From the NCBI GenBank assembly GCA_016235815.1, contig JACRIM010000042.1, positions 1-64,000 on the forward strand: a DNA stretch of 64,000 bases. The letters are read 5' to 3'. The first letter of the stretch is position 1. Each line of letters begins with the position of its first letter. A program made the position numbers and the translations under genes. Positions 52,330 through 57,630 of this stretch are shown piece after piece. The notes beneath the pieces are model-generated. The model was not told where the DNA came from. It did no database searches and saw nothing but the letters and a program-made list of their open reading frames with translations. The DNA is from Planctomycetota bacterium. GTDB lineage: Bacteria; Planctomycetota; Phycisphaerae; UBA1845; UTPLA1.

Positions 52330-53705
52330 GCGCGGTGGACCAGGTAACTGCCGCGCTTGATCGCATCAAGCGACTCGATCCGCAGTTGAAGTGCATCCTG
52401 CGCACGCAGGACGCCGCCGCTCCGATCAAATCGGGTGACGGGTTGCTTCAAGGTGTTCCCATCGCGATCAAGGACAACATCTGTACGCATGACGGAATCA
52501 CTACCTGTGGATCGAAAATGCTGGCCAACTATCGCTCGCCCTACGATGCACATGTCGTCGAACGGCTGCGCGCTGCCGGTGCCGTCATCGTCGCCAAGAC
52601 CAACTGTGACGAATTCGCGATGGGCTCTTCCACCGAGCATTCCGCCTTCTTTCCCACGCGAAATCCGTGGAATCCTGAATGCGTTCCCGGCGGCACGTCC
52701 GGCGGATCGGCCGCCGCCGTGGCCGCGAGGCTCGTGCCCTATGCACTCGGCAGCGACACCGGCGGCTCCGTGCGACAACCGGCCGCGCTGTGCGGCGTTT
52801 GCGGGTTGAAGCCGACGTATGGCCGCGTGTCGCGCTATGGACTTGTCGCACACGCCAGCAGCCTCGATCAGATCGGACCGATAGCGACGGATGTTCGGGG
52901 CATCGCACGGATGTTGCAGGTCATCGCCGGGCACGATCCGCGCGATTCGACCAGCGCGCACGAACCAGTGCCCGATTACCTCGCTGCGCTCGATCAGTCG
53001 ACCGGCAAACTCTGCATCGGCGTCCCTCGCGAATACTTCGGCGATGGGCTCGATCCTGAGATTCGCCGCGCCGTTGAGGCCGCGATTGAGACGTACAAAT
53101 CGCTCGGCGCCACGATTCGCGAGGTTTCGCTTCCGCATTCGAAATACACCATCGCGTGCTATTACATCATCTCGACCGCCGAGGCGTCGAGCAATCTTGC
53201 GCGATTCGACGGCGTGCGCTATGGGCATCGCACCGCGAACCCGCGTGATTACATTGACGTCTATAGCAGCAGCCGCGCTGAGGGCTTCGGACCCGAGGTC
53301 AAACGTCGCATCATGCTCGGCACCTATGCCCTGTCGAGCGGCTACTACGACGCGTACTACAGCAAGGCGCTCAAGGTGCGCACACTCATCAAGCGCGACT
53401 TCAATGAGGCATTCAGCCAATGCGACATTCTCCTTTCGCCCACGTCGCCCACGCCGGCATTCAAGATCGGCGAGAAGTCCGATGACCCGCTGGCGATGTA
53501 CCTCGCCGACATTTACACGACCTCCATCAGCCTCGCGGGCATCCCGGCGATCAGCATCCCTTGTGGGCTGACGGCTTCGAGATTGCCCATTGGGCTGCAA
53601 CTCATGGCCACGCACTTTGGCGAGGTCCGGCTGCTTCAGGCGGCTCACCAGTACCAGTCTGCGACGGCGTTTCATACGGCGACGCCGCCTGTTTGCGCTG
53701 AATAG
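52326..53705 (+). CDS. gatA: Asp-tRNA(Asn)/Glu-tRNA(Gln) amidotransferase subunit A
   Basis: 459 residues, a little shorter than the usual 470-490. The amidase signature is intact: lysine in VPIAIKDNI, cis-serine in [13 protein letters not shown] and nucleophile serine in [16 protein letters not shown], then [16 protein letters not shown]. It releases ammonia from glutamine for GatB. The distal part ([29 protein letters not shown]) is also typical. No terminator is seen before the small gene at 53810. Confidence 0.96.
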
Positions 53706-53809
53706 CCAATCCGTAACATGTTGCCAATAAGCAGGTTATGTCGTTCTTGCAAATCGCGCGTGATGATATTAAAATGATATCGTTCAGATAACAATAGAGG
53801 AGTCTTCCC

Positions 53810-53929
53810 ATGCTTGGTGACATGCTGAATCGGCGACACGGAAAAGCGACGGTCTGGCACGGAATCATCGCAGCGATCGTCGGCGTACTCCTTGCCGTCG
53901 GAGTGGCGATCGCGGCGTTGTGGGGTTGA
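53810..53929 (+). CDS. Small 39-residue membrane peptide upstream of SPFH gene
   Basis: ATG at 53810 behind the strong site agaggagtcttccc. The peptide MLGDMLNRRHGKATVWHG is followed by a 20-residue hydrophobic helix rich in Ala/Val/Ile and ends LWG. Start-site quality and its place 27 bp before the SPFH gene support a real gene. It probably inserts in the membrane with the SPFH protein; function unknown. Confidence 0.65.
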   Translation: MLGDMLNRRHGKATVWHGIIAAIVGVLLAVGVAIAALWG

Positions 53930-53956
53930 TTTCTTTCTTCTGAAAGGAGATGTCCA

Positions 53957-54859
53957 ATGGCTTCGGAATTTGCACGCTCGACACGAACCGGCTGGGGAAT
54001 GCTCCCGCTGATTCTCATTGCGCAGTCGGGAACAATCGCGGGACTCATATGGTCCATTTCGCTGGTGAAGGGACTGGGCATCGCCGATCCGAAGTTGCTG
54101 CCGGGGCTGCATATCGCGGCGTGGGCGCTGGGCAATATCGTGGTGCTCATCCTGTGGGGCGGATTCTTCACGCTGCAGCCAAACACCGCCGCGGTGTTGC
54201 TGCTTTTCGGCGAGTACAAGGGCACGGCGACACGGGCGGGCATCAACTGGGTCAATCCTTTCTACAACGCACAGAAGATTTCGCTTCGCGCCCGCAACCT
54301 GAACAGCGAGAAGCTGAAGGTGAACGACCAGCGCGGCAATCCGATTGAAATCGCCGCCGTCGTCGTCTGGCGCGTGCAAGACACGGCCAAAGCCACGTTC
54401 GACGTGGACAGTTATGACCACTACGTGCACGTGCAAAGCGAGTCGGCCATTCGCCATCTCGCGAGCGCCTACCCCTACGACACGACCGAGGATCATCAGA
54501 TATCGCTTCGCGGGAGCATGGACGAGGTCTCGAAGGCGCTGCAAATCGAACTGCAGGAACGCCTGGGCAAGGCCGGCGTGCTGGTCGATGAGGCGCGGCT
54601 GAGCCATCTTGCGTATGCCCCCGAGATCGCCGGGGCGATGCTGCGTCGGCAACAGGCCGAGGCGGTGGTGGCGGCACGAACGCGGATCGTCGAAGGCGCG
54701 GTGGGCATGGTTCGCATGGCGCTGGAGCACCTGGACAAGGACAAGATTGTCGAACTCGACAACGAGCGCAAGGCCGCGATGGTGAGCAATCTGCTGGTCG
54801 TGCTCTGCGGCGAACAGGCGGCGCAGCCGATCGTGAACACGGGGACGCTCTACACCTAA
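53957..54859 (+). CDS. Stand-alone SPFH/band-7 protein
   Basis: 300 residues. Two hydrophobic N-terminal helices (about 15-38 and 53-72) lead into an SPFH domain: LQPNTAAVLLLFGEYKGTATRAGINWVNPF, NDQRGNPIEIAAVVVWRVQDTAKA and SAIRHLASAYPYD. The distal segment is ERLGKAGVLVDEARLSHLAYAPEIAGAMLRRQQAEAVVAARTRIVEGAVGMV, a form common to bacterial SPFH genes that stand beside Arc-like genes. A site gaaaggagatgtcc precedes the ATG. It is distinct from the three HflK/C-like proteins. SPFH proteins organise membrane microdomains. Confidence 0.92.
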   Translation: MASEFARSTRTGWGMLPLILIAQSGTIAGLIWSISLVKGLGIADPKLLPGLHIAAWALGNIVVLILWGGFFTLQPNTAAVLLLFGEYKGTATRAGINWVNPFYNAQKISLRARNLNSEKLKVNDQRGNPIEIAAVVVWRVQDTAKATFDVDSYDHYVHVQSESAIRHLASAYPYDTTEDHQISLRGSMDEVSKALQIELQERLGKAGVLVDEARLSHLAYAPEIAGAMLRRQQAEAVVAARTRIVEGAVGMVRMALEHLDKDKIVELDNERKAAMVSNLLVVLCGEQAAQPIVNTGTLYT

Positions 54860-54881
54860 CCGCCGACTCGGGGATGCCGTC

Positions 54882-55079
54882 ATGGCGGACAAGAAGTCCA
54901 TCCTGCTTCGCATTTCGCCGGAGCTGTGGGAACAGCTGAACCGGTGGGCACGGGACGATCTGCGCAGTTTGAATGCGCAAATCGAATTCGTGCTTCGCGA
55001 GGCCGTGCGGCGGCGCGGCCGGGGCGAGGAGGCGGAGGGCGGAGGCGGGACGGGGCCTGAAAAGCCCGACGCTCGCTGA
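54882..55079 (+). CDS. Arc-like ribbon-helix-helix protein
   Basis: 65 residues. KKSILLRISPELWEQLNRWARDDLRSLNAQIEFVLREAVRRRGR is an Arc/MetJ-type ribbon-helix-helix; a Gly/Glu tail follows. Such proteins bind DNA as dimers. It lies 22 bp after the SPFH gene and is probably co-transcribed. A role as repressor of this small operon is inference; it may instead act on the SPFH protein. Confidence 0.8.
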   Translation: MADKKSILLRISPELWEQLNRWARDDLRSLNAQIEFVLREAVRRRGRGEEAEGGGGTGPEKPDAR

Positions 55080-55283
55080 ATGTTGCTGCACCGATGGAGA
55101 ATGGGGCGAGGGTCCGTGGGGTTGAGTACAGGTCAAAGCGACGAAGGCACGAAGCGACGGAGCGACGAAGGGGAAGAAGGGGTTGCTTCGCAACGCGGGG
55201 ACCGGGAGTTTGCGGCAGTTTGTCTTTTGATTTGCTACGGGCGGCAGAGGTTCTCCAGATTACCATTTGTTAGGTTTAAGTTA

Positions 55284-55299
55284 TGTTCCACGTGGAACA
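55284..55299. promoter_or_regulatory. Putative parS centromere site
   Basis: TGTTCCACGTGGAACA, a perfect 16-bp palindrome. It matches the widely conserved parS consensus TGTTnCACGTGnAACA bound by ParB (Spo0J) during chromosome segregation, including the CACGTG core. parS sites cluster near the chromosomal origin; no parA/parB genes are in this window. Confidence 0.75.
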
Positions 55300-55420
55300 C
55301 GATTTCGGTGTGTGTTGGCACACATTTTGGGTTTTTTGTCCGATGATCGCGTTGGGGATAGCGCTCCGCCGCGGCGGATCTTCGACAGTGCGGAATCCCA
55401 GTTTCGGGGGTGGAAAAGAA

Positions 55421-55450
55421 GTGGGATTTAGTGGGACAAAGTGGGACGGG
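55421..55450 (+). repeat. Three-unit 10-bp tandem repeat
   Basis: gtgggattta, gtgggacaaa, gtgggacggg: three consecutive units sharing gtggga. Confidence 0.5.
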
Positions 55451-55749
55451 GCGAATGAAGAATGTCGAATAGCGAATAGCGAAAGCGGATGGCGGTTGCT
55501 TCGCAACATGGATTACGTTCCTTTTGTGACGGCGCGCGGATAGAGCGCGGCCTCCCGGTTGCAGGCTTGCGCGGCGTTCCTAACTCTTACCTAACTTAAT
55601 ATAGTCTTGGGATACGCAAAGGCAAGGAGAACTTCGCAGGCTGGTCAAAGTTTAACTTTGGAGTCGGGATTTGGCGTGGATGCCGGGTGTGGTGGGTTGA
55701 GTACAACCGCACCCTACGATTTCAGGTCGAGCATTGAGGGGTAGTGAGG

Positions 55750-57630
55750 TTATTCGCTCAAGAGGCGGGCGACGAAGGGGGCGATGTCGTCGGTATTGAC
55801 AATGCCTTCGCCGGTGAGGTCGTAGGCACATGACGCTGCGCTTACAGGGGCGAAGTTCACGAGGGAATCGACGAAGGGTGCGATGTCGCGGGCATCGGTG
55901 AGGCCGTCGAGGTTGCCGTCGGCGGTGTTGGTGGGGAAGACGGTGAGGGTGGCGGTGTGCGAGATCTCCGCGCCGCAGTCGGGGAGTTTCACGTAGCAAT
56001 CGTAGTCGCCGGTCTCGGCGGGCTGGGCGTGCAGGAAGACGAGCGTCGGGGATTGCGCGCCGAGGATGGCATCGGAGTCGGCAAGCGGTGTGCCATTTTT
56101 TCGCCATTGGTAGGTGACAGTGCTGCCGCGCGGGTCGGCCGAGGCATGCAATGAAACCGTGCTGCCCTGGCAGACGCTGGGCGAGGCGGGTTGTTGGGTG
56201 ATGAGGCCGAGGCAAGGGTAGTCGCCGATGCGGAGGAACCAGACATCCTGCTCGCCGTTGAAGGTGGCGGCGTAGGCGAGATTGGCACCGAGGTCGTCGG
56301 AGACCATGTGGTAGTAGTCGCCGATTTTACTCTGGTTTGGCCAGCCAACGGAGCTGTCCCAGGCGGGGGAGAGTTGTTCGTTGGGGGACCAGGTGAGGCC
56401 GCCATCGGAAGATGAAGAGTAGTAGAGTTCGGAGATGAACCGATTGGAGGGTGAATGTCGTGTGTCATTCCAGATGATGTCGATGCGACCGTTGGGGGCG
56501 ACGGACATGGTGGCGAACCAATGAACGATGCGCGAATCCGCCACATCGTCGTTAACTCGATTCGGGAGAGACCAAGACACGCCTTTGTCGGTACTTCGAG
56601 AAAACCTCACATCTACAAACCAGCCAGAATGAAAGTAGATAACTGAACATAACAGATATACATTTCCTCGATTTCGCCCGGAAGAGTGGTCGGTTGCGAT
56701 CCATGCTTGCCCTAGCAGTCCGTCCGGGTTGGGGTCAATAAATGTCGGCAATAAACCATCCAATGACACGTAATTAAACAGTTGAAAGCTTGGCACAACT
56801 GCCGGATCTTGGGCATTGTCGGACCTTACGACAACAAAGGAGGTCTCATCTGTGTTCCCATTGGGATTTCCTCCAGACACATATAATTCGCCGTCAGGGC
56901 CTACCGAAATAGTACCGAAAGGAGGCCGCAATGGGACGTCAATCGGATCTAACCAAGTTTGTCCGCCATCAGTTGATCGCGTAAATGAGCGATAACTGCA
57001 GCAGCCTGAACCTGGAGACCAAGCTGCATAAATGTTCCCTCTTCCCACACCGCTTGTCTTGTCAGTACCCATCCATGCTTTATCACCGCCATAGGCACCT
57101 GCAAAGTTTGGCCACGACTGGCCTCCATTGGCAGAGCGAAAGACATCGCAACGAAATGGAGATACTCTGAGACTATTGTAGTAAAATTCACCAGATGGGC
57201 TTGCCGCCAAAACCGGGTCACTCCTGAATACGCCTGGTTGCAAAGTGCCCGGAAAAATCCAATTGCGACCCGCATCAGCAGTGTAACCGTAGCCAGCTTG
57301 CCGGAAGTTGGAATACACGCTGTCGAATTGCCGCCAACCGATAGCCATGCGATAGGGATTGGTCGGATCGACGGCGATGGAGGGTTCGTTGGCGGCGTCG
57401 TCGAGGATGTTGTTGCCGTTGGCATCGACGTTGACCTGAATGCTGACGTGGGGGCCGAATTGGACATGGCGCGAGGGGGCGGTGCGGCCGGTGCCGGGCC
57501 TGTAGGGCATGGTCTGGCGTTCGCGCTGGGCGCGGAGGGTGATTGGATCGGGTAGGGCGGACTGGTCGACGCAGGCCGGTTCACTGATCTGGGTAATGAT
57601 CAAAAAACAAAGCAGCAGTGCTGAGTGCAT
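55750..57630 (-). CDS. Secreted BNR/sialidase-like protein with Ig-like and dockerin-like domains
   Basis: 626 residues, with ggaggcacaa before the ATG. Signal peptide 1-18. From about 60 to 450 it is a beta-propeller of sialidase type with Asp-box repeats: RSANGGQSWPN, RSTDGGQTWLD, RSTDKGVSWSL and SSSDGGLTWSP. Then comes an Ig-like domain (about 475-560; QQPASPSVCQGSTVSLHASAD, GTPLADSDAILGAQSPTLVF, GDYDCYVKLPDCG). The C-terminus has two dockerin-like loops (TADGNLDGLTDARDIAPFVDSL, then DLTGEGIVNTDDIAPFVARL), both ending APFV. The catalytic residues of true sialidases cannot be shown; it may only bind glycans. Confidence 0.88.
   Translation of the reverse strand: MHSALLLCFLIITQISEPACVDQSALPDPITLRAQRERQTMPYRPGTGRTAPSRHVQFGPHVSIQVNVDANGNNILDDAANEPSIAVDPTNPYRMAIGWRQFDSVYSNFRQAGYGYTADAGRNWIFPGTLQPGVFRSDPVLAASPSGEFYYNSLRVSPFRCDVFRSANGGQSWPNFAGAYGGDKAWMGTDKTSGVGRGNIYAAWSPGSGCCSYRSFTRSTDGGQTWLDPIDVPLRPPFGTISVGPDGELYVSGGNPNGNTDETSFVVVRSDNAQDPAVVPSFQLFNYVSLDGLLPTFIDPNPDGLLGQAWIATDHSSGRNRGNVYLLCSVIYFHSGWFVDVRFSRSTDKGVSWSLPNRVNDDVADSRIVHWFATMSVAPNGRIDIIWNDTRHSPSNRFISELYYSSSSDGGLTWSPNEQLSPAWDSSVGWPNQSKIGDYYHMVSDDLGANLAYAATFNGEQDVWFLRIGDYPCLGLITQQPASPSVCQGSTVSLHASADPRGSTVTYQWRKNGTPLADSDAILGAQSPTLVFLHAQPAETGDYDCYVKLPDCGAEISHTATLTVFPTNTADGNLDGLTDARDIAPFVDSLVNFAPVSAASCAYDLTGEGIVNTDDIAPFVARLLSE

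Follow-up and report, generated by a model that had tools for sequence, protein, structure and literature searches.

A bacterial chromosome is commonly assumed to have a single origin of replication with parS near it, and it is well established that ParB binds to sites of the parS type and that SMC is loaded there. The DNA considered here, a window of 64,000 nucleotides (bases 1-64000 of C24, a 105-kb contig in the assembly of a planctomycete, probably of the Phycisphaerae), carries a perfect parS-like palindrome. Does the palindrome lie near the origin, as a preliminary description of the window proposed as one of two possibilities, or is it one of several such sites, each with a claim of its own?

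The palindrome and its copies

The 16-bp palindrome TGTTCCACGTGGAACA lies where it was first described, at 55284-55299 of the window, and fits TGTTNCACGTGNAACA exactly. Against the strict TGTTNCACGTGAAACA it has a single departure (A to G), forced by perfect palindromy. The exact sequence is found once in the window, and the assertion that there is no other copy survives even a search that allows three mismatches to the B. subtilis-type parS consensus. In Pseudomonas aeruginosa the identical 16-mer constitutes parS2 and parS3, the highest-affinity sites of that species (PMC4368675). The site appears to be intergenic, within a region (55080..55749; neither region nor site is assigned a strand) bounded on the left by an ORF of 65 amino acids (54882-55076, + strand) and on the right by a BNR/Ig-domain gene (55750-57630, - strand). 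The apparent ORF 'MFHVEH' that runs across the site is a mere translation of the palindrome. The SPFH/Band_7 protein encoded by a neighboring gene (53957..54859, + strand; PF01145, E 2.6e-23) implies no function in replication.

The assembly consists of 4.58 Mb in 60 contigs, 95.5% complete and 1.9% contaminated, and all of it together contains six exact copies of the 16-mer, at five places on five contigs. Besides the window copy (C24:55284) there are outlying copies at C11:150071, C23:108311, and C27:173787, and a pair (C34:25359 and C34:25458) just upstream of parB. A variant with one mismatch, at C44:69753, is equal to parS1/parS4 of P. aeruginosa (PMC4368675). In 1.33 Mb, the degenerate parS consensus has 6, 1, 3, and 54 matches at 0, 1, 2, and 3 mismatches, respectively, so the exact sites stand far above background and chance is excluded at the scale of the genome. 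The reversed pattern, as control, gives 0 matches in this genome.

The parB gene adjoining the pair (C34:25724; TIGR00180, E 2.9e-52) is the best chromosomal parB in the genome. Its product has all three domains, ParB_N, HTH_ParB, and ParB_C, and its nearest named relative (49% identity) comes from a Phycisphaerae MAG. A three-domain ParB with two identical parS sites upstream makes the window site credible as parS. The best matches to ParA-type ATPases (C31:9193 and C16:9346) do not adjoin parB. Immediately upstream of the parB-linked sites, at C34:19.5-24.7 kb, are helicase-like and DNA methylase-like genes that by eye resemble a restriction-modification system. The gene dnaA is at C24:66185, 11 kb from the window copy, and DnaA_N has a single match in the genome.

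The preliminary description had staked its reading on the genome possessing ParB and on the copies not being scattered about the chromosome. Half of this holds: ParB exists, but the copies, on five separate contigs, extend over 0.41 Mb or more (about 9% of the genome at the minimum), and their order along the chromosome is uncertain because the assembly is fragmented.

Coincidence of parS with jumps in GC skew

The positions of the parS sites were fixed before GC skew was looked at. A jump is defined as the skew to the right of a point minus the skew to its left, and jumps were scanned over 1.33 of the 4.58 Mb (29%), in eight joined contigs, two of which (C41 and C58) have no parS. On C24, negative GC skew prevails between 1 and 52 kb, and between 55 and about 88 kb the skew is positive. 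At the switch between them (52500..55500, no strand assigned) a skew of about -0.1 gives way, from left to right, to one of +0.2, with a cumulative minimum near 53.5 kb and the largest jump, 0.25 at W = 10 kb, at 53.6-54.5 kb. A similar upward switch is found at the parS loci on C34, C11, C23, and C27. Each of the five parS loci has one of the eight largest upward jumps of the 1.33 Mb no more than 2 kb away (binomial p 1.5e-8). The jump at parS averages 0.223 (W = 10 kb; permutation p < 5e-5), and the p value is still no greater than 5e-5 when the parB locus is left out.

There are also six upward jumps in the 1.33 Mb, comparable or somewhat smaller, that have no parS: C41:180600, C11:18700, C58:168500, C27:110300, C41:108200, and C41:42800. 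The first of these is the largest jump of all (0.36 at W = 10 kb). A search of the six for degenerate parS found none with two or fewer mismatches, and the variant site at C44:69753 has no skew jump. A parS site is therefore neither necessary nor sufficient for a jump, and I do not claim that it acts as a replicator.

A different candidate for that role, a second module beginning TATCAATCTTGATCAGTGTTTCAC, is found near jumps at C41:182.9k, C41:41.3k, C11:19.5k, C27:174.1k, and C23:108.5k. It was not taken up, since the copies at C23:45.7k and C58:108k show no clear jump. On C41 there is also a 1.1-kb element in two copies, 91% identical (C41:181946-183019 and C41:41219-42343), each lying about 2.5 kb or less from an upward jump. 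Within it is a hairpin, TTTCACATTCGCTGTGAAA, with arms similar to half-sites of parS.

What becomes of the idea that the palindrome is an origin-proximal marker? It finds support locally, with dnaA nearby and a sharp switch in skew at hand. It does not extend to the genome, where four other loci have upward jumps of their own and parB is on another contig. A count of the exact 16-mer against skew, dnaA, and parB, part of the check that had been advised, places every one of its five locations at an upward jump. Offered the choice between a site near the origin and an outlying parS, the latter is nearer the truth: the window holds an origin-like point that is one among several and is not the origin itself.

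The jumps have a consistent direction. None of the ten largest (W = 10 kb) is downward, the strongest in that direction being -0.147, and the distribution of jumps over the 1.33 Mb has a skewness of +1.46. After a jump, the skew declines roughly linearly over 60-130 kb (r2 0.56-0.93), which gives the whole the form of a saw-tooth. The same measure applied around oriC of E. coli K-12 reaches a maximum of 0.083 and shows no asymmetry. At most loci the jumps show in intergenic DNA and in third codon positions alike, whether of + or of - genes (at C23 the + genes give a mixed picture), and the strand of genes is uncorrelated with local skew. Transcription therefore does not explain the jumps, and skew driven by it is rejected. 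TA skew, in third positions plus intergenic DNA, is positive at 5/5 parS loci. A tendency of genes to be oriented away from parS is weak at 10 kb (p 0.045) and gone at 15 kb and beyond, and was set aside.

parS and skew in related genomes

In the sampled members of the family, parS and its one-mismatch variants adjoin parB almost exclusively, an apparent chance match in genome G002 being the exception; a wider count of genomes also turned up G003, with 27 copies. Several named planctomycete parB genes likewise have parS adjoining. The outlying copies therefore look derived in this lineage. The jump at parB-linked parS is positive in 10/10 relatives from the family and order, some of the jumps being small (0.012 in G015), and the local maximum falls within 500 bp of parS in G002, G013, G019, G008, and G009. 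Among five more distant planctomycete parB loci, viewed in short windows, only one has a positive jump.

An upward switch 1.5-12 kb upstream of dnaA is found on C24 and in G002, G013, G011, and G015 (within 10 kb in the relatives). In complete genomes of the family, parB is hundreds of kb from dnaA, giving two origin-like points on one chromosome. G002 has a single broad V-shaped skew, coarsely sampled, with its minimum near parB, not dnaA, and with little saw-tooth asymmetry.

A dispersed repeat that carries parS

Comparison of sequences across contigs shows that the window palindrome is embedded in a mosaic intergenic repeat (55190..55460, + strand), pieces of which, about 69-91% identical, are dispersed on C44, C27, C23, C51, C59, C41, C22, and C12, and weakly on C11. 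The repeat is clearly common to the outlying parS copies on C24, C23, and C27, and also to the variant on C44, with a weaker resemblance at C11; the parB locus lies outside it. Some copies of the repeat have other sequence where the palindrome would stand. A scan of public genomes for the repeat together with parS found none. Contigs C51, C59, C12, C41, and C29 end in or near members of this repeat family (near the first 830 bases).

When five copies are aligned, the only change in the palindrome is at its last base, in C44, and the flanks have diverged. Preservation of the palindrome while the flanks diverged suggests that selection acts on it.

Might parS be merely a passenger of the spreading repeat, its coincidence with jumps due to chance or to a preference for insertion? 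Three outlying copies are clearly in the repeat and that on C11 weakly so, and the intergenic DNA of this genome is rich in repeats. I consider this quite improbable, however, given that conservation is higher in the palindrome than elsewhere in the repeat, that repeat density is uncorrelated with jumps (rho 0.02), and that copies of the repeat without exact parS (C44:69.5k, C58:144k, and C23:45.5k) are without a strong jump. The lack of correlation also leads me to reject the repeat as the cause of the jumps.

It is more improbable still, to the point of being hardly credible, that the pattern arose through assembly or binning, either from contigs falsely joined at repeats or from several organisms, each contributing its own origin. 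The 60 fragments and the several contig ends near members of one repeat family might raise the suspicion. Against it, copies of the parS-bearing repeat differ by 15-20%, and the identical stretches they share are short, making it hard for them to mislead an assembler, and the repeat does not include the parB locus at all. Contamination is low (1.9%), tetranucleotide usage is uniform across contigs, as in a single genome, and the jump at parS is present in complete relatives too.

One origin or several

A minimum of skew need not be an origin (Gao 2015, PMC4403523; Xia 2012, PMC3269012). No parS locus has a cluster of DnaA boxes (three or more matches to TTATCCACA, up to one mismatch), a different box being possible, so initiation at these loci would need either independence from DnaA or another box. 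Minimum GC near the parS loci, a check for an AT-rich unwinding element, falls within the range of background.

One could suppose that the chromosome has a single origin with all copies of parS forming an ordinary cluster in the origin half, its skew broken by rearrangements or other forces and parS kept at or near the points of rearrangement. The five loci need span no more than that 9% of the genome, 0.41 Mb, compatible with the zone of ~500 kb that is permissive for parS in Caulobacter (PMC5815017); dnaA is close to the window copy; and the skew of G002 forms one broad V. I nonetheless regard this account as unlikely, though the most serious contender. Rearrangements yield upward and downward jumps equally, yet the ten largest jumps are all upward. 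The declines between jumps are gradual, and it is not to be expected on this account that 5/5 parS loci should sit on upward jumps.

Alternatively, a single active origin may have shifted repeatedly, leaving behind old parS sites and fading jumps. The jumps are indeed unequal in height (0.20-0.36), and relatives keep parS only at parB. This too is a way to account for dispersal, and an improbable one: the palindromes are perfect amid diverged flanks, requiring that old sites still be under selection, and linear declines require a fork polarity that is stable for long periods.

I propose instead that the window palindrome is a candidate functional parS, at which ParB binds and SMC is loaded, and that it is placed at one of several zones where replication initiates, a proposal to which I give an even chance. 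ParB nucleates at parS, and the SMC that it recruits then travels from parS towards the terminus (PMC7333895). At 55284-55299, ParB would bind and load SMC in this way. From an ancestral place beside parB, parS would have spread to at least four further places, in part by means of the dispersed intergenic repeat, and copies would have been kept where replication starts. Several zones of initiation would produce sharp upward jumps in skew with nearly linear declines between them, the observed saw-tooth, and parS at five of the strongest zones would let ParB and SMC engage DNA that has just been replicated. In B. subtilis, SMC is blocked by replisomes (PMC12322038), a possible reason for loading it where forks start.

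I infer that the jumps may be active origins and hence that there may be several. Multiple origins are only moderately probable, considering that 29% of the genome was read, that the order of contigs is uncertain, that the loci need span only 0.41 Mb, and that skew is ambiguous. A bolder form of the proposal is that the chromosome is polycentric, with tens of initiation zones spaced at about 60-130 kb, skew like that of N-domains, and parS at several of the origins. This I advance tentatively, expecting that it may well prove wrong.

Precedents for parts of the proposal can be found. Like the chromosomal ParABS systems of P. aeruginosa (parS2/parS3), B. subtilis, and Caulobacter, this one has ParB and two copies of parS adjoining parB, the 16-mer being identical to that of P. 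aeruginosa. Unlike them, it has four further loci, on other contigs and borne in part by a repeat, each at its own jump in skew, and its best ParA-like genes are apart from parB. The cyanobacteria Synechocystis 6803 and Nostoc 7120 replicate from multiple origins independently of DnaA and oriC (PMC7198777). They share with the present case a bacterial skew that does not fit one origin, but theirs is irregular, whereas here the jumps are sharp and five of the largest are at parS. In the N-domains of human chromosomes, the shape of the skew reflects the polarity of replication forks (PMC3320577), and there as here upward jumps border segments of linearly falling skew; those domains extend over megabases, in contrast to about 60-130 kb in this bacterium, where parS is at five of the borders. 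Finally, Dehalobacter has a putative second origin adjoining parB (Gao 2015, PMC4403523), similar in that an origin-like switch in skew stands beside parB and apart from dnaA. The Dehalobacter site is also supported by DnaA boxes, of which no cluster was found at the loci described here, and the present genome has more than two switches.

If each of several parS sites coincides with an origin-like switch, then the placement of centromeres would be tied to the placement of origins. The question of multiple origins would also be open to direct test, each candidate site being located to about 2 kb.

Dispersed parS in the wider class

Most of 296 genomes from the class have from zero to two canonical parS sites, and 15 (about 5%) have five or more, a proportion that suggests that dispersal of parS arose more than once in the class. 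The most exact copies are found in G154 (36 at 24 places on 21 contigs) and G003 (27 on 13 contigs), both from the same order as the present genome. If the polycentric reading is true, then these two Phycisphaerae genomes would be further cases.
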